A stretch of 37,307 bases of DNA. It comes from an uncultured Verrucomicrobiales bacterium (lineage in GTDB: Bacteria > Verrucomicrobiota > Verrucomicrobiia > Verrucomicrobiales > DEV007). The translations under genes and the position numbers were made by a program. A model generated the notes under the pieces. That model saw only the letters and a program-made list of their open reading frames with translations, did no database searches and was not told the DNA's origin. The stretch's first letter is position 1. Every line of letters starts with the position of its first letter. The DNA lies in assembly GCA_913058215.1 (NCBI GenBank), contig CAJXQE010000024.1, forward strand, positions 1-37,307, given 5' to 3'. Of this stretch, positions 2,464-18,542 are shown piece by piece.

Positions 2464-3993
2464 TCAATCCCACTTGAAAGGTCCGCCTTTGAGGCGTTCG
2501 ATTTTACGAATGAGCCAAAGGTTCTGTTCCTCGATTGTACTGAGATTAGGACTCGTGGCGTTTGAATTTCTCCGGTAGTAGGACTTCTGCTCAAAGTGAC
2601 GTCTCAGAGCTTTGGACTTAAAAGGAAATCCGTGTTTCGCAAAGATCTCATTGCGAGCGATAGACAAATCCCGAAGAGACAGATTCTGAACGGCGACCCT
2701 TGATATGACTTCATCGGAGGAGTAGGGAAAAATATCTCCGTTCGCGTTTACTCCGGCAGGGGGGGGAGGTAGAGGCGATGCGCCGCTTACCCTGCCACTC
2801 TCTCCATGAACTCGATTGTGGTAATCCTGCAATTCCTCCGGCGACAACCCGATAATAAACAAATCCTCGTTGGCGGGCACGAATGGACCGCCTTTCTTTT
2901 TCTCAGCACGCTGCAATGCTTCGATGTTGGCTTCTTCGATAGAGGAAAGGTTCGGAGATTTGAAGCCCGGTTTTTTCTCATACCAAAAGCGATCACCAAA
3001 GTAGAACTTGAGGAGTGGAGTTCCAAAGTCGAAACCGTGCCTCGCAAAGATCTCATTCCTGCCAAAGTAGAGTTGAAATAAGGGTTTTGCCTCCAACTCA
3101 GAAACTGACAACAAGCGATTGGAGGAGTCGGGGAAAATGTATTTCACCCTCTCAGGCACCATGACCTCTGCGTTTCTTCTATCGAAGAGAGGTTTTCCAA
3201 GACCATAGGCGAAAGGACGCTGGGGCTGAAGAGAGGAATCCCCAATCGCCTGAATCTCGGCAGCTGTTTCATCGACGACTCTCGCTTCCGTCCTTTGAAA
3301 GACCGTCTCCCATTGCTTATAGCGTTGCATGTCGGAGGCGAGATTCACCGTCAGATAACCACCCCGTTCCGTTCCAAATGCATCCTGGCCCGGCGAAGCG
3401 GCGGTGATGTTGACGAACCCTTCATGCAGGCGCATCAGAAAGTAGAAAGAGTTCCACGGATTGATTTCAATTGGTCCTTCCGCAATATCGTTGATGGAAT
3501 AGCTGGAGCAACAGTCCGTAACCAGGATTTTCAATCGGGCGGGCAGGGCCTCAATCCGGTCAGCCCATTCTTTCCGGCTACGCATTTCTAAATCACAGAA
3601 ATGGAGAAACTGCTCGTTAGTGGCCTTGTCTTTGATCACCCCATGACCGGAGAAGTGGATGTATACCGTGTCGTCTGTGCCTACTTTCCTGCTGAAAGCT
3701 TCAAATTGCGTCATCACCTGCTCTGCCGTGGCGGTCTTGCCGGACACCTCTGTGATTTCAAGCGATACACCCCACCCCTGCTCGGAAATGTTGTCCGTAA
3801 GCAAGCTTCTTACAATTAAGCTGTCTGTGGTGACGCTCTCATTGATGGCGCCATAGTCGCCGGGATACTCATTGCAGAAAACCAGGAATGCGCGAATCGC
3901 TGGTTTGTCCTGAGAGTGGGCAACTCCGCCGCAAAACAGAATTAAAATGAAAGACAAATAGTAAAGTCTTCCTGTAGCCATCAGTTTTTCCAT
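2464..3993 (-). CDS. Secreted caspase-like (C14 family) protein with two YARHG domains
   Basis: 509 residues from the chosen ATG at 3993. The frame stays open to 4155, but only a start at 3993 (or 3981) puts a normal signal peptide (TGRLYYLSFILILFCGGVAHSQ) at the N-terminus. Residues about 30-240 form a caspase/metacaspase-like domain: strand VYIHFSGHG with the presumed catalytic His117, then ILVTDCCSS with the presumed catalytic Cys162. Two YARHG domains follow: FGRNEIFARHGFDF at about 309-343 and IARNEIFAKHGFPF at about 446-478, each followed by an S/TSPNLSxIEE-like stretch (KSPNLSSIEEAN and TSPNLSTIEEQN). A proline-rich linker, PLPPPPAG, lies between them. YARHG is known as an extracellular domain associated with peptidases; its ligand is not established. 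The domain order is clear, but the substrate and role are unknown. The gene sits on the same strand as ndk and pyc with gaps of over 140 bases, so an operon is not obvious. Confidence 0.85.
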   Translation of the reverse strand: MEKLMATGRLYYLSFILILFCGGVAHSQDKPAIRAFLVFCNEYPGDYGAINESVTTDSLIVRSLLTDNISEQGWGVSLEITEVSGKTATAEQVMTQFEAFSRKVGTDDTVYIHFSGHGVIKDKATNEQFLHFCDLEMRSRKEWADRIEALPARLKILVTDCCSSYSINDIAEGPIEINPWNSFYFLMRLHEGFVNITAASPGQDAFGTERGGYLTVNLASDMQRYKQWETVFQRTEARVVDETAAEIQAIGDSSLQPQRPFAYGLGKPLFDRRNAEVMVPERVKYIFPDSSNRLLSVSELEAKPLFQLYFGRNEIFARHGFDFGTPLLKFYFGDRFWYEKKPGFKSPNLSSIEEANIEALQRAEKKKGGPFVPANEDLFIIGLSPEELQDYHNRVHGESGRVSGASPLPPPPAGVNANGDIFPYSSDEVISRVAVQNLSLRDLSIARNEIFAKHGFPFKSKALRRHFEQKSYYRRNSNATSPNLSTIEEQNLWLIRKIERLKGGPFKWD

Positions 3994-4245
3994 CCCCAAA
4001 GTACCTGCCATCCTACACCGCCGGAATGTCCGGAGGCAATCCTGAATGTGAAGTCGGAGCCGCGGCCGGAGGCATTGAAAGGGAAAGGCGCGCAAGATTG
4101 TGAAATCCAGCAGAAAGTCTGCCAAAATCTCAGGGACGAAAAATGTCCCGATCACTTTTCGTCCCGGCCCGACAGGACGGGCGCGGATTGATTACCTGGC
4201 CAGGCTCAATCGATCGACCGGGCAGTTTTCCGGAGCGAATGACGC

Positions 4246-4772: not shown

Positions 4773-5606
4773 TCAGATCCCGTGCTTGTAACCTTCGCAG
4801 CGATTCATCCAGCCAGCTGACCAGCGTGATTCCCCGCGAGACGAAGGGGAATTTTTGATTCGACGCTGCAGAACACGCTTGGCAGCTTCGCTGTATTCGT
4901 TCGCCGAAGCCTGACCACCGCCGGTTTCGGCCATTTCCAAAAGGACATCGCGAAGTCCCCAGCCCTGACCATTGTATTTTTCTTCAGTTTTGATTCCTTC
5001 CCCTTTAAAGTTCACGTAATCAATGAGCGAGTAAACTCCGGTCCGGGTCGAGGCCACTTTGTAGAAATTGTCGACAATGCGTTTGCTGTTAGCAGGATCA
5101 GGGGTGGCGGACTGCATTTTTGGCAGGGCGCTTTCGAGCCGCTGGACGATGAAACCGGTTTGAGTTGGCACTGAACCGGCAAGGAATTGGCGTAATTCCT
5201 TCATTTGTGCGGAGTTTTGCTGATTTAAGAATTCAGATCTCGAAGTCCAGGGGCTGCCCTTGGCTTCTCCCACCCATTTCGGCATCGCGACTCCCTGTTG
5301 CTTCATATACGAAACCAACTGGGGGAAACTTTCTTGAAAAGGACCGGGCCGACCGGGGACATACCAGATGAAATGGCCGATTCCGAGAGAGGGGAAATCC
5401 TCGCCCTGGTTCCAGCTGGTAAGGCCTTCAACGGTTCCGTTGCACTCGTTTTTCCAGATTTTCTTACCGATTGCCTCCTTATCAGAATTGCTCAATTGAA
5501 TGCCGGATTTGCCGGGGGTGGGCGATGGCGATGAACCGGTCGTGACACAACTGCTCAGGGAAAGGAGGAGCGGGACGAAAAGAATTCTAAAAAGTGCGAG
5601 GCGCAT
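4773..5606 (-). CDS. Lipoprotein of a conserved uncharacterised family with a lysozyme-like signature
   Basis: 277 residues. The N-terminus MRLALFRILFVPLLLSLSSC is a lipoprotein signal with lipobox LSSC, so Cys20 would be lipidated and the protein anchored in the membrane facing the periplasm. After a Ser/Pro linker the mature domain begins IGKKIWKNECNGTVEGLTSW and continues to FPSLGIGHFIWY. The spacing of a Glu, then GL, then LGIGH recalls the active-site start of T4-type (GH24) lysozymes, which have E...GL...TIGIGH. Further conserved-looking stretches are YVNFKGEG...GQGWGLRDVL and the C-terminal RWSAGWMNRCEGY. I recognise these as family-type motifs but know no assigned function. A role in peptidoglycan turnover is an inference from the LGIGH resemblance only. 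It is divergent to the zinc-ribbon pair that starts at 5726. Confidence 0.75.
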   Translation of the reverse strand: MRLALFRILFVPLLLSLSSCVTTGSSPSPTPGKSGIQLSNSDKEAIGKKIWKNECNGTVEGLTSWNQGEDFPSLGIGHFIWYVPGRPGPFQESFPQLVSYMKQQGVAMPKWVGEAKGSPWTSRSEFLNQQNSAQMKELRQFLAGSVPTQTGFIVQRLESALPKMQSATPDPANSKRIVDNFYKVASTRTGVYSLIDYVNFKGEGIKTEEKYNGQGWGLRDVLLEMAETGGGQASANEYSEAAKRVLQRRIKNSPSSRGESRWSAGWMNRCEGYKHGI

Positions 5607-5725: not shown

Positions 5726-8320
5726 ATGAATCCTCGCACTCAAATTTCCTCTTCGACAGAAGATGCATCTCCTCAACTTGAGCCGAACACCGACGAATTT
5801 CTAAATTCTCTCGGTTTCGGCTCCGATACGATTCAGGAGTTGGATGATATGGACTTTGAGGACGGGGCCAATAAAGGAATTATGCTTTCATCCCAACCAG
5901 ACGACCTGTCCCTTCCGGGTTCAAATGGTTATCAGATACCTAAACGGTTTGGTTTAGAAGATCTGCAAACGGTTATTTCTCCCGAGAAAGTGAAGCCTTC
6001 TGAAGAGATGGTTCATCCGGAGATTCCAGAAGTCGTGGCAGAGATCGAAGACGAATCAGAGCCCTTCGTGGATTCCACTTTGGCGCAGGATATTGGAGTT
6101 CCAGAACAAATCCTTCCTGAAATCGAGACGGAAGAGGAAATTGAAATGCCTGGAAATGTCGTGGACGAAATTCTTGATTCGTCAGTTTCATTTGCGATAT
6201 CTCCCACTGCGAAAGTTGAAGTGCCTGTCTCCAATTCGGATTCCGAGATTTCTGCAGAACAGGATCCGGCTCCAGTCGAGGCCCGGGCTGAAAAGGACGA
6301 GGAGGAAGACCTGTCGCTGGCTTTGCATTGCCCTTCCTGTGAGGGAGAGCTCACTTTGATGCCGGAGCATCTGGGTATTCAGGGGAATTGTGTATGGTGC
6401 GAGGTTCCGATTATCGCAGCAAAGCCTTCGGCCGATGGTTCAGTTAGTGTTTTTGCTGTCCAATCGAGTGAGGGTGGCTCTCCGAAAGTCAGTGCTCCGG
6501 AGGAGATTGAAGAGCCCATCGAGCCGCAAGCTGCCGAACTACCAGTCACGGAACCGCAAGCTGTCGAACCGCAAGTTGTCGGACCACCAGTCTCGGAACC
6601 GCAAGTTCCCGAATCCGCTGTTCCGCAATCTGGCGAAAGTGTGATTACTGAACCTGCCTTACAGGCTGCAGTTGAGGCACCTCCGGTAGATGAAACGTCG
6701 ACTGCCGAAAGTTTATCGTCGGTGAACGCGCCCGGGGCTTCTCAAGGATGGGCGCCTGTCTATGCTGCACTTCCTCAGGATGCCAGCGGTCAGTCCGTTC
6801 TGGCGCAGAGTCTAATACCTTCGGCGATTAGTAGTGCTGATTTACAGGAGGAGGAAGAAGTCCTCCCAATGTCGATGGAGCAACCTTTTGTTCCTGATGT
6901 CGAAACAACGCTTCCTAATTCGGCCATACCTGCAACGGAGACCGAAGAAATCAAACCGGTAGTGGCGACACCTGCGGTTCAGGAATTGCCGGAAGTACCC
7001 GTAACCCGGGCGCCTGCACAGCCCGTGCCGGAGGCAGCTCCGGTTGCGACGCCTGAACCAGCTCAGGAATCCATTTTTTATGCCGATCCCGCTGAGGCGC
7101 CACCATCGCCTGAGCCGCAAGCAGTGACCGCAGTTGCGCCAGAGCAAGCGCCTCTTGCTGAACCTGCTCCTGCTTCAGATCCAGCACCTGCCCCCAAACA
7201 GGATGTTGCTCCTGAGATAGAGCCGGCCACTTTTGCTCAGATCTCTCCTTTCGGATCGCCACTTCCAGTAGCAGAGGAGGAAGCGCCGAAAGCTCCGTTT
7301 AAAGAGGAGCCGATAGAGGCGTCCCCGCAACCTTCTCCTCCAATTGCGGCAGAAGCGGAAGTTCTGGAGAATGCAAGCCACGTCCCTGAAGAAGAGAAAA
7401 AAGAACAGGTTTCCCCATGGGGACAACCTTTTCAGGTAATGGAAGTTCCTGCTGAGGTTCCACGAAGTAGTGTCCCTCCGAAAGAAGTAGCAAACGAGAC
7501 TCCTGCAGAGGAGGCAAGCACTTGGGCTCCCGCTTCGCCATCGGCCAACGCTGCCCCGCAGCAGACACCGGAAGAAGTGAAATCAGATTCCGGGCCTAGT
7601 GGTTTCGGAGCTTCGGAACCTCCACCGGCAAAAGTTGAAGATCCTCCTCCGTCTTTTGGTGAATCTCCTTTTGCGAAACTGCCTGAAGTAGAGGCACCTC
7701 TTGATTCCCCTGCCGAAAATATTCCGATAAAGGAAGCGCCTCCGGTTCAATTTGGTCAATTTCCGCCGGTCGACGAGCCAAAAGAGTCTGCGGCAGAACC
7801 ATCGAAATCGAAATTGCCTTACGATCCCGATGATCCGGATCTTCCTCCTGAAGACCCGCCCAAAACGAAACCCAAGTATAGAACCAGTTCGGTAACCAGT
7901 TCGGGATTCAGTCCGGATAATCCGCCCCCTTCCGATTCGGGAGATGCGAGCCCGCCTCCACTGGGTGGAAACGCGCCGGCTCAGACACCGCCTGCTAAGG
8001 CTGCGGCAAGCAAGGTGGTCATAAAGAAAACCACAACAAAGAAGAAGCCCGAAAATAATGGGAAAAGCATGAAGGCGCTTCTCATAATCATGGGACTCGT
8101 TACCGGAATCTGCGTGGCGTCTTTTCTTCTCCCAGTCGAGAAATACATCGGCAAAGCGAGGGCCTACCTCGACGAAAAACTCAACCTTTCACCAGCGGAC
8201 CCCGTTGTTTCGCCCGTTACGCCTTTCAGCTTACCTGGCACTTCCGGGAAAACACCCGCACCCGCATCATTCTCTCCTTTGCCCGCGCCTTCGCAGCCCA
8301 TCCCCCCAACATCATCATGA
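5726..8320 (+). CDS. Zinc-ribbon, long disordered, C-terminally membrane-anchored protein (paralogue A)
   Basis: 864 residues of unknown function. The first 200 residues are very acidic with no recognised fold. A zinc ribbon follows at 202-225, with Cys202, Cys205, Cys222 and Cys225 (C-x2-C-x16-C-x2-C) around the signature EHLGIQGNC. Residues about 235-780 are rich in Pro, Glu and Ala, almost certainly disordered, and carry EPQ repeats and scattered aromatic motifs (SPFGSP, SPWGQP, SGFGAS, SFGESPF, QFGQFP). A basic patch (KVVIKKTTTKKK) precedes one membrane segment, MKALLIIMGLVTGICVASFLL, at about 782-803, and a short Pro-rich tail of about 60 residues ends the protein. The basic patch suggests the long N-terminal part is cytoplasmic. 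It overlaps the next gene by 4 bases (ATGA), and that gene is a paralogue with the same layout, so the two are translationally coupled. No upstream Shine-Dalgarno sequence is visible. Confidence 0.85.
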   Translation: MNPRTQISSSTEDASPQLEPNTDEFLNSLGFGSDTIQELDDMDFEDGANKGIMLSSQPDDLSLPGSNGYQIPKRFGLEDLQTVISPEKVKPSEEMVHPEIPEVVAEIEDESEPFVDSTLAQDIGVPEQILPEIETEEEIEMPGNVVDEILDSSVSFAISPTAKVEVPVSNSDSEISAEQDPAPVEARAEKDEEEDLSLALHCPSCEGELTLMPEHLGIQGNCVWCEVPIIAAKPSADGSVSVFAVQSSEGGSPKVSAPEEIEEPIEPQAAELPVTEPQAVEPQVVGPPVSEPQVPESAVPQSGESVITEPALQAAVEAPPVDETSTAESLSSVNAPGASQGWAPVYAALPQDASGQSVLAQSLIPSAISSADLQEEEEVLPMSMEQPFVPDVETTLPNSAIPATETEEIKPVVATPAVQELPEVPVTRAPAQPVPEAAPVATPEPAQESIFYADPAEAPPSPEPQAVTAVAPEQAPLAEPAPASDPAPAPKQDVAPEIEPATFAQISPFGSPLPVAEEEAPKAPFKEEPIEASPQPSPPIAAEAEVLENASHVPEEEKKEQVSPWGQPFQVMEVPAEVPRSSVPPKEVANETPAEEASTWAPASPSANAAPQQTPEEVKSDSGPSGFGASEPPPAKVEDPPPSFGESPFAKLPEVEAPLDSPAENIPIKEAPPVQFGQFPPVDEPKESAAEPSKSKLPYDPDDPDLPPEDPPKTKPKYRTSSVTSSGFSPDNPPPSDSGDASPPPLGGNAPAQTPPAKAAASKVVIKKTTTKKKPENNGKSMKALLIIMGLVTGICVASFLLPVEKYIGKARAYLDEKLNLSPADPVVSPVTPFSLPGTSGKTPAPASFSPLPAPSQPIPPTSS
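6521..6613 (+). repeat. Degenerate tandem repeat coding for EPQ-type units
   Basis: Inside paralogue A the DNA repeats CCGCAAG(C/T)TG(C/T)CGAA-type units, interspersed with ACCAGTC(A/T)CGGAA. It encodes successive EPQAAELPVT, EPQAVEPQVV, GPPVS and EPQVPE segments. This low-complexity stretch probably changes length by slippage or recombination, within a region where length matters little. Confidence 0.6.
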
Positions 8321-9900
8321 ACCAGAGCGCAACAACCTCATCGGATTCCAACTCGCAGGCTGAAAATTCTCCAGTAGACGATCCATCGGAAGTGATCCGA
8401 TTGAAATGTCCATCGTGTAATGGCGGCTTGAATCTGCAACGGCGCCACCTCGGAGTTTCCGGAAATTGCGTCCACTGTCAGTCGCCGATAAGAGCCTTGA
8501 TCCGCCCCAACGGAGAATTCTTCGCCGAAAACCCCGAGAATGATAGTCAGGCTCCAGCTCTGCATGGACCTCCTTCTTTTGCCCCGCCTGAAGCTCAGCC
8601 ACAAGTAGAGAACAGTTCTTCTCCACGCTTTCCCGAGGATTCGACTCCAGCTCTTGTCGAAGAAACTCCTGCTCAAGCCCAAGCGGTCGCGACGCCGCCT
8701 TTGCAAAGCGATAAGGGAACAGCAAGCTCGCCATGGGGATTCCCGAAACCGGAAGGATCGGACTCAGAAGCTCAGTGGGAAACACCAGCTGAAGCAAACC
8801 CTCCAATGTCATTTTCTCCACAAGCGGATCCGGAGCCGGTCGCAGTGGAAAATACTTTTGAGACGAATGGAGAAGAAGTTCCAGTGATTCCTGATGTTCC
8901 GGTTGAGGCACAGGTGGACACTGCTTTTGGAATGCCCGTGAAAGACGAGTCGATTTCCACTCCCGTTTTGGAGGATCCCCCTCCTTTTGAAACCACTGGA
9001 CTTTTCCCCAACAGCCCTTCTGAGCCAAATTCGGTGTCGCCTGCTCATTCTGTCGAAGAAATGGCGCCTGCAACAGATCCGTCTTTAACGACAGGAACAG
9101 ATGCGCCGGAGAAAAAAATGACGCCTCCCCTGTTCGCGCAGAGTACCGATCAATCTCCAAAATCTTCGATGTTTGCCTCCGAAGATAACTCCGTTGATGT
9201 CGAATCCGGACCAGTTGCCGACATGGCAAGTGGCCCCTGGGCGAAGACGGAAGGAACTTCACCATTCGAGGAGAATCCTTCTCCCGGATTTGCCGAGACT
9301 CTTTTCAAGCAAGGGGATACAAGCGAAGCGACAGGTGCAGTCGATTCCGATGAAGTGAATCCGGAGCCGAAAGATTCAGCAGAGGCGGAAGCTGAACCCG
9401 CAGAAGCGGTCATTCCCAAAGCGAGAAAGAAACCTTCCAAGGTATTCAAGAACGGCAACCTATCGGGGGCCACAGCAGCCATCACAAAATTGATGCGGAC
9501 GGTGATCTTCCTCACTCTTCTGGTCGGATTCGGATACGCCGCATTTGTGCTGACTCCACCGGAAAAGATGGCGGAGATGAAAGTGAAAGTCAGGGAATGG
9601 CTCAAGCCGGGCGAGGTTCTAAACGAATACCTGCCATTCAAACTCTTTCCAGCGGATGAAGATTCAATGGAGCAAACCGGGACCGGATCCGCGCAGCAGC
9701 CGGATAAACAAACGGCTCCTGCTGCTCAGAGTAAGAGCGAACCTGTCACAACGGAACCACCGGTATCCTCTGAGGAAAAGTCACAGGGCGAAACTCCATC
9801 GGCGACACCGGACTCACAGACGGCGCCTGATCCTACGAAGCGTCCAGCTCCCGCCGTGAGCGCTGATCAAATTGCAGGAGACGTTTTGCCTCCGGAATAG
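8317..9900 (+). CDS. Zinc-ribbon, disordered, C-terminally membrane-anchored protein (paralogue B)
   Basis: 527 residues, a shorter paralogue of the gene just upstream. The zinc ribbon is close to the N-terminus with Cys31, Cys34, Cys51 and Cys54, exactly the same C-x2-C-x16-C-x2-C spacing, and the shared signature RRHLGVSGNCVHCQSPI. An acidic, Pro-rich, probably disordered region of about 320 residues follows, with SPWGFP, TAFGMP, SGPWAK and TSPFEE motifs. Next come a basic stretch (KARKKPSKVFKNG), one membrane segment near residues 395-415 (RTVIFLTLLVGFGYAAFVL) and about 110 polar residues. The membrane segment is followed in both proteins by a related acidic or basic helix (PVEKYIGKARAYLDEKL in A, PPEKMAEMKVKVREWL in B). 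The start codon overlaps the stop of paralogue A, so expression is coupled. Function unknown; the pair may work as a heteromer. Confidence 0.85.
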   Translation: MNQSATTSSDSNSQAENSPVDDPSEVIRLKCPSCNGGLNLQRRHLGVSGNCVHCQSPIRALIRPNGEFFAENPENDSQAPALHGPPSFAPPEAQPQVENSSSPRFPEDSTPALVEETPAQAQAVATPPLQSDKGTASSPWGFPKPEGSDSEAQWETPAEANPPMSFSPQADPEPVAVENTFETNGEEVPVIPDVPVEAQVDTAFGMPVKDESISTPVLEDPPPFETTGLFPNSPSEPNSVSPAHSVEEMAPATDPSLTTGTDAPEKKMTPPLFAQSTDQSPKSSMFASEDNSVDVESGPVADMASGPWAKTEGTSPFEENPSPGFAETLFKQGDTSEATGAVDSDEVNPEPKDSAEAEAEPAEAVIPKARKKPSKVFKNGNLSGATAAITKLMRTVIFLTLLVGFGYAAFVLTPPEKMAEMKVKVREWLKPGEVLNEYLPFKLFPADEDSMEQTGTGSAQQPDKQTAPAAQSKSEPVTTEPPVSSEEKSQGETPSATPDSQTAPDPTKRPAPAVSADQIAGDVLPPE

Positions 9901-17873: not shown

Positions 17874-18542
17874 GTGAAAGAGTCGGAGAAATTTATCTGT
17901 CCCTATTGTGAGTCTGACATCGGCATCGAAGATGTGAATGTTTCCACAGATGTCGCCCTGTGCCGTTCCTGCAATCGGACAAGCGCATTTTCCTCCGTTT
18001 GTGAATCGGGAAGAATCTCAGTGAGTGTTCTCCAGTCACCGCCTAAAGGAATTCGTTTCGAGCGTGGTTTCCGGGGCGGCCGGTCGATTGTTTATCGTAG
18101 AGTTTCCAAGGGCGTATTCTTTCTGATTCCTTTTACGGTATTGTGGGCCGGTGGTTCTATGTGGGGGATCTACGGAACCCAGTTCCAGGAAGGAGAATTT
18201 GATTTGGGAATTTCCCTGTTCGGAATTCCGTTTTTGATTGGCTCAATTGTTCTCGTTGGAATGGTGCTCTACACCTTGTTTGGAAAATGGAAGATCAACC
18301 TGAATAGCGGTCTGTTGGAAGTTGGCACGGGCATTGGTCCGGTGGCTTGGAAAAGATCCATCCGCTATCATTCTGATTCGCGGGTGAGAATGAAAGCGAC
18401 GAAGTTGAAGAGCGACGATCACATTCAGAAGGCGGTCTCGGTGGAGACTGACGCCGAGGAATTGCAGTTCGGAACGGCGATTCCTGACGACGCGAAGAAA
18501 TTCATTGCCGCCGCCATTCTCGAAGAAATTCGGAACCGGTAA
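17874..18542 (+). CDS. Zinc-ribbon protein with two membrane segments
   Basis: 222 residues from a GTG start at 17874; the nearby ATG at 17848 runs into a stop. The zinc ribbon has Cys9, Cys12, Cys30 and Cys33 (C-x2-C-x17-C-x2-C) around the sequence IEDVNVSTDVALCRSC. A basic linker containing SPPKGIRFERGF precedes two membrane segments, VFFLIPFTVLWAGGSMWGIY (about 81-100) and FGIPFLIGSIVLVGMVLYTLF (about 116-136), with a soluble C-terminal half. I recognise the ribbon-linker-two-TM pattern as one that recurs in unrelated phyla, but know of no function. This is a different ribbon from the 5726-9900 pair: spacing and flanks differ. A small membrane protein starts 70 bases downstream on the same strand. 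Confidence 0.75.
   Translation: MKESEKFICPYCESDIGIEDVNVSTDVALCRSCNRTSAFSSVCESGRISVSVLQSPPKGIRFERGFRGGRSIVYRRVSKGVFFLIPFTVLWAGGSMWGIYGTQFQEGEFDLGISLFGIPFLIGSIVLVGMVLYTLFGKWKINLNSGLLEVGTGIGPVAWKRSIRYHSDSRVRMKATKLKSDDHIQKAVSVETDAEELQFGTAIPDDAKKFIAAAILEEIRNR

Follow-up and report, generated by a model that had tools for sequence, protein, structure and literature searches.

A tandem pair of zinc-ribbon proteins on long disordered tethers in Verrucomicrobiales, possibly a membrane-anchored recruiting scaffold

The described system closest in layout to the gene pair considered here is ZitP of Caulobacter. ZitP controls polarity and pili in this bacterium. It begins with a zinc ribbon located in the cytoplasm, followed by one membrane helix and then a DUF3426 domain; the ribbon binds PopZ, and the DUF3426 domain is required for the recruitment of CpaM for pili (PMC5182065, PMC5182063). 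A zinc-finger domain is also recorded for AgmX of Myxococcus xanthus. AgmX/GltJ, a part of the gliding machinery, has an N-terminal zinc ribbon that recruits MglA, followed by linkers and a single membrane helix, and the GYF and TonB-like domains that GltJ carries count as defining. A third point of comparison, LysW, is a small soluble amino-group carrier protein. The original prediction for the locus below held that no such system was known, a statement contradicted by the published ZitP, whose parts come in the same order (PMC5182065, PMC5182063).

The window, meaning the whole stretch of 37,307 nucleotides that was analysed, comes from contig C24 of a 7.67 Mb draft genome with a completeness of 92.8%. 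Two open reading frames on its + strand, present as predicted, encode a protein A of 864 aa (5726..8320) and a protein B of 527 aa (8317..9900), the stop codon of A and the start codon of B sharing an ATGA at 8317..8320 (+). A is made up of an acidic N-terminus, a zinc ribbon, a linker with GF/FG stickers, a basic patch, a helix and a tail, and B of a zinc ribbon, a linker, a basic patch, a membrane helix and a tail; the paralogy of the two is real. The ribbons, C-x2-C-x16-CVWC in A (6329..6400, +; CPSCEGELTLMPEHLGIQGNCVWC) and C-x2-C-x16-CVHC in B (8407..8478, +; CPSCNGGLNLQRRHLGVSGNCVHC), have the identical C-x2-C-x16-C-x2-C spacing that had been read from the sequence and hold HLGxxGNCVxC in common. 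The HLGxxGNCxxC core proposed for them is found in both, but its GNC varies in relatives (GAC, GKC, GQC). Placing each ribbon at the end of its tether needs correcting for A, where 201 residues precede the ribbon with the motifs FLxSLGxG and LSSxPDD (in the window FLNSLGFG, 5798..5821, and LSSQPDD, 5885..5905, both + and both kept across the genus). AlphaFold models the A ribbon alone with four strands at a mean pLDDT of 91.3, and in a model of full-length B (13 alignment rows) residues 21-70, which include the ribbon, reach a pLDDT of 87-95 per ten-residue block. A further frame in the window (17874-18542, +) has two CxxC pairs (CPYC...CRSC) that by eye are unlike the A and B ribbons, and another (2464-4155, −) encodes a Peptidase_C14 (caspase-like) domain with two YARHG domains.

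With their start set 15 residues after the ribbon and their end 5 residues short of the helix, the linkers measure 538 aa in A (6446..8059, +) and 320 aa in B (8524..9483, +). P, E, A, S, T, D, Q, G and K make up 78% and 77% of their residues, and their net charges are −60 and −40. Composition suggests disorder for the A linker, and AlphaFold leaves most of the B linker below a pLDDT of 50, as expected from the prediction. Each protein then has one membrane helix by hydropathy, at 8075..8131 (+) in A and 9499..9555 (+) in B, with peaks at residues 784-802 and 395-413; the B model has a helix at residues 385-412 and a second one C-terminal of the membrane at residues 415-436 (9559..9624, +), a region conserved in the genus, with a tail below 50. 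Charge counts bear out the basic patches. The N-terminal side of the helix has 8 K/R and 1 D/E in A, where the patch spans 8000..8074 (+), and 7 K/R and 0 D/E in B; the C-terminal side has 4 K/R and 4 D/E in A and 6 K/R and 5 D/E in B. By the positive-inside rule, this distribution predicts that both ribbons sit in the cytoplasm, and the tails, 62 aa in A (8132..8317, +) and 114 aa in B, follow the helix, that of A being expected outside the cytoplasm. A single membrane helix with the ribbon inside, as in ZitP, is thus the topology predicted from hydropathy, charge and the B model helix.

How far this likeness extends can be judged from family searches. Neither A nor B had a match above cut-off in Pfam, NCBIfam or PHROGs, so no characterised family that could overturn the prediction was recovered there. 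The sequence matches of the ribbons are weak and mixed (MqsA at E 0.00087, eS27, LysW), and those to MqsA, Zn_ribbon_Top1, DUF2089 and LysW were set aside as generic zinc-ribbon likeness. No Foldseek match to the ribbon model reached E 0.001; LysW came first (18% identity, E 0.31) and the ZitP ribbon (2nb9) lower, both with modest scores, and LysW, unlike A and B, has no tether or helix. ZitP shares with A and B a C4 ribbon inside the cell, a single helix and a part beyond the membrane. However, its ribbon is spaced CxxC-x19-CxxC rather than x16, its tether is about 70 residues long (ribbon 1-37, helix 106-127) compared with 320-540, and it is one protein, not two paralogues. The ZitP-type ribbon family PF13719 (zinc_ribbon_5) matched neither full-length protein (E up to 10) and was not among the matches listed for 10 aligned ribbons (best 25 of 37 families, E up to 1), and DUF3426 was absent from the matches of A and B (E up to 10) and of 10 post-helix regions of relatives (E up to 1). 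PopZ (PF10691) was found in 0 of 28 relatives, the window's own genome included, by a search whose control matches in Caulobacter, which leaves a direct copy of the ZitP-PopZ system unsupported. Because PF13719 and DUF3426 were not found, the spacing differs and PopZ was found in none of the 28, the likeness to ZitP is one of design, not kinship, and A and B belong to a different family. AgmX/GltJ also has its parts in a similar order (ribbon, linkers, single helix), and Pfam (E up to 10) shows neither its GYF nor its TonB-like domains in the two proteins of the pair. In the partial literature searched on zinc-ribbon proteins of Verrucomicrobia, nothing on the pair was found. The layout itself was already known from ZitP.

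Of 56 genomes searched with B, 22 gave a match, the window's own among them, and each of these belongs to the window's genus. A ribbon profile matched 125 of the 288 genomes tested from the order, including 25 of 33 from the genus, again with the window's own (at most 24 candidates were scored per genome, and misses are not proof of absence). The labels of the 19 named loci recovered with A, all of them metagenome assemblies, read Verrucomicrobiales, Akkermansiaceae, Verrucomicrobiaceae or Verrucomicrobia. Of the 25 genus genomes that have one or more ribbon genes at the locus, 18 have A then B on the same strand, three have A only (G010, G013, G020), one has only a B-like gene (G029) and three are not judgeable owing to contig ends or separate contigs (G016, G018, G027). 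Adjacency thus holds in 18 of 22 judgeable genomes without being constant, and the two genes do not occur mostly apart. Coupling through ATGA was correct for the window but is not general. The gap between A and B is −4 to 44 nt in 14 of the 18 pairs, with −4 solely in the window, and 353 to 1218 nt in G005, G012, G021 and G023, where the upstream frame stops early; outside the genus, the −4 overlap recurs in three g17 genomes. The pair is present at all six loci fetched from three other genera of the family (g17, g20, g26; the ribbon profile also matches a fourth g17 genome, G111, outside these six), and fetched loci of g15, g16 and g21 have a single ribbon gene. In a homologue at L046 (14110-16017, −), a single frame holds two ribbons, along with a tandem repeat resembling APVIVKDE.

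The neighbouring genes place these loci. A 277-aa gene with a lipoprotein-like start (in the window 4773-5606, −; start judged by eye, no Pfam match) lies on the upstream side in 22 of the 25 genus genomes, the three misses all being contig ends. Downstream lies leuD in 21 of 25, three of the four misses being contig ends and G029 having no leuD in the stretch read. Among the genus genomes that have no ribbon match, G015, G017 and G030 (loci L179, L180, L181) have leuD and the lipoprotein gene adjoining without the pair, as an empty site; G002 breaks off within the lipoprotein gene, and this gene had no match in G001, G003, G006 and G022. Outside the genus, the lipoprotein gene flanks five of six pair loci, and both it and ndk (NDK identity confirmed) flank four of six single-gene loci (L119-L122). 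From these shared flanks, pair loci and single-gene loci are the same chromosomal place. The pair is real and conserved, and since A occurs without B in three genomes and the pair is absent between its flanks in three, the bacteria can do without the pair, and A can exist on its own.

The explanation we favour, to which we give a probability of roughly 45%, is that A and B form a membrane-anchored scaffold whose paired ribbon headpieces, on disordered tethers, capture and cluster a cytosolic protein partner. Such a recruiting scaffold fits a folded head on an extended, acidic tether with a sister protein made alongside, and the reading builds on the parts, their conservation and adjacency, the predicted disorder of B and the sticker enrichment described below. 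A and B would be paralogous single-pass membrane proteins with a zinc-binding ribbon inside the cell, each ribbon serving as a protein-binding headpiece whose long disordered tether extends from the inner membrane. The products of the neighbouring genes may then act jointly and capture and cluster a cytosolic partner much as ZitP does PopZ. The aromatic stickers of A would add many weak contacts, and the SPF..GFAETLF block of B (9253..9306, +), kept across the genus, may be a docking site. Against the scaffold stand a sticker enrichment that is not universal, the three genomes with A and no B, the three with flanks but no pair, the lack of a Foldseek match at E 0.001 and the weak, mixed ribbon matches; its candidate partner PopZ was not found in the 28 relatives, and no partner was found. 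The membrane-anchored scaffold of the original prediction remains the best inference, with a protein now favoured over a nucleic acid as the partner. The ribbons could instead bind DNA or RNA and so fix the nucleoid, ribosomes or mRNA to the inner membrane, a reading that we consider unlikely. Nucleic-acid binding is frequent among zinc ribbons, and the weak resemblances to MqsA and ribosomal eS27 point the same way, but the window's tethers are acidic. ZitP, the closest layout, binds a protein (PMC5182065, PMC5182063).

The pair is not alone, since related ribbon-tether-helix proteins with an extra domain are widespread in the order. In g17, g20 and g26, B has a domain of about 230 residues C-terminal of its helix, ending in WGAW; at L114 (9829-11418, +) the B frame ends at a stop codon inside a still recognisable domain. 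A profile of this domain matches in 180 of 288 genomes of the order, and some domain match occurs in 26 of 33 genus genomes searched, with an N-terminal ribbon in seven of the eight such proteins read fully. A wider profile, with an invariant DW and an invariant W near the terminus, matched in 27 of 288 genomes of the phylum, all 27 in the window's order, and within the sample searched the domain is restricted to that order. The window's own genome, which is incomplete, had 0 matches at E up to 10, leaving A and B without a detectable domain. Nothing credible was found for the domain in Pfam or among solved structures; the DW pattern allows no more than a guess at an NTF2-like fold. Many of the domain proteins read start with a CPxCxxxLTVPxxLAGxxGPCPxC ribbon, continue through a proline-rich tether and a single helix and then carry the domain, and some, for example L198-L209, have helix and domain without a ribbon. 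At L177 (358-2988, −) a Ser/Thr kinase replaces the ribbon and is followed by a membrane helix and the same domain as in B of other genera.

The ribbon-tether-helix-domain proteins of Verrucomicrobiales (L143, L147, L150-L152, L154, L157, L158, L171-L176, L178) share with A and B the C4 ribbon, proline-rich tether and single helix, and their domain is present in B of other genera. They differ in having the DW/near-terminal-W domain, which the window's A and B lack, and in their ribbons (LTVP..lAG..GPCP or LRVP..LAG..APCP); those included in a ribbon tree lie outside the A/B group. This tree rests on 41 columns, and only one of its splits is firm, the one between LTVP-type ribbons and those of A, B and the single genes (support 100/99); its row L129_C1 is a spurious frame match, and the pattern used did not pick up the ribbons of L171, L172, L174 and L175. 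The labels A and B rest on the CVWC motif, so that their clustering in the tree is not independent evidence. As B of other genera has the domain, held in common with the Ser/Thr kinase, the window's pair is read as a derived, domain-less branch of a larger family, and as the window's B does not have it, the link to that family runs through B plus a loss. We infer that a ribbon-tether-helix-domain gene was duplicated in tandem at the ndk locus. A is without the domain in every case read, B would have lost it in the window's genus, and L120, a single gene at the same locus, would fit an ancestor. This history also allows for degenerate sensors, in which an ancestor sensed the outside via the domain and signalled by ribbon and tether, the genus B having lost the domain and A being its partner. 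The domain kept by B elsewhere, its place behind the kinase helix and its occurrence with N-terminal ribbons in the genus agree with this, but the pair in the window lacks the domain, its genome gave no match to it and no ligand or signalling partner is known, and we consider the idea improbable.

The linker sequence is poorly conserved and short motifs are kept, as judged from genus alignments that, after removal of broken, truncated or divergent frames, comprised 14 of 21 for A and 15 of 20 for B. The FLxSLGxG motif of A is seen by eye as RSRFLxx(L/I)GF in five of six A proteins from other genera (L111-L115). In B, WGFP is kept across the genus together with SPF..GFAETLF, which pattern matching did not show in B proteins from other genera. 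Linker and sticker tests covered 13 of 20 genus A frames, namely the window and 12 of 19 relatives. The linkers range in length between 148 and 770 residues, and the A linkers have 1 to 25 occurrences of GF, FG, GW and WG (in the window 7, with 1.1 expected). The A count lies beyond all 500 shuffles in 10 of the 13; the exceptions are L068, L073 and L079, where 40, 156 and 414 of 500 shuffles reach it. Outside the genus, only two of seven proteins had low shuffle counts (L120 6, L112 17 of 500). In 9 of 13 B proteins no more than 12 of 300 shuffles come up to the observed count, but the window's own B is not enriched (75 of 300); among seven third paralogues the lowest values were 12 and 22 of 300 and the others at least 80. 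Even spacing of the aromatic residues in A was rejected as a general property, as only 3 of 13 proteins had 5% or fewer of random placements as even. The stickers could be taken further, with A forming a meshwork like that of FG nucleoporins on the inner membrane face, cross-linked with B via the ribbons into a client-selecting, membrane-bound condensate. The superphylum is noted for unusual cell compartments. We rate this version as quite improbable.

It is very unlikely that A and B are type IV pilus assembly or polarity factors, as ZitP is for Caulobacter pili. In the putative Akkermansiaceae (family f2), two PilT-like ATPase genes are immediately followed by a ribbon-helix gene at 7 of 25 loci (L129, L130, L213, L216-L218, L222; eight with L221), the same arrangement is found at L253 in another family, and the window's genome has a pilT/pilU pair. 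These ribbon-helix genes are paralogues, however, not A or B, and no ribbon gene stands behind the genome's own pilTU; of the 12 pilTU loci inspected, the genome's own among them, L253 alone carries one. The pilus link is only a lead. At L249 (3868-4947, −), in the small-genome relative G042, the gene directly downstream of pilTU encodes a SurA-like PPIC rotamase. A passive envelope spacer or filler, with the ribbon merely a folding clamp, would suit the variable length and poor conservation of the linkers, but is highly improbable given that the ribbon sequence and short motifs are conserved and that upstream and downstream ribbons differ consistently.

A separate ribbon-tether family in Verrucomicrobiales would suggest that the recruiting design known from ZitP arose more than once in bacteria. 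The tandem pair without an outer domain and the kinase that shares this domain are part of that expanded family, which offers a way into the study of how cells are organised in bacteria for which few scaffolds are known.
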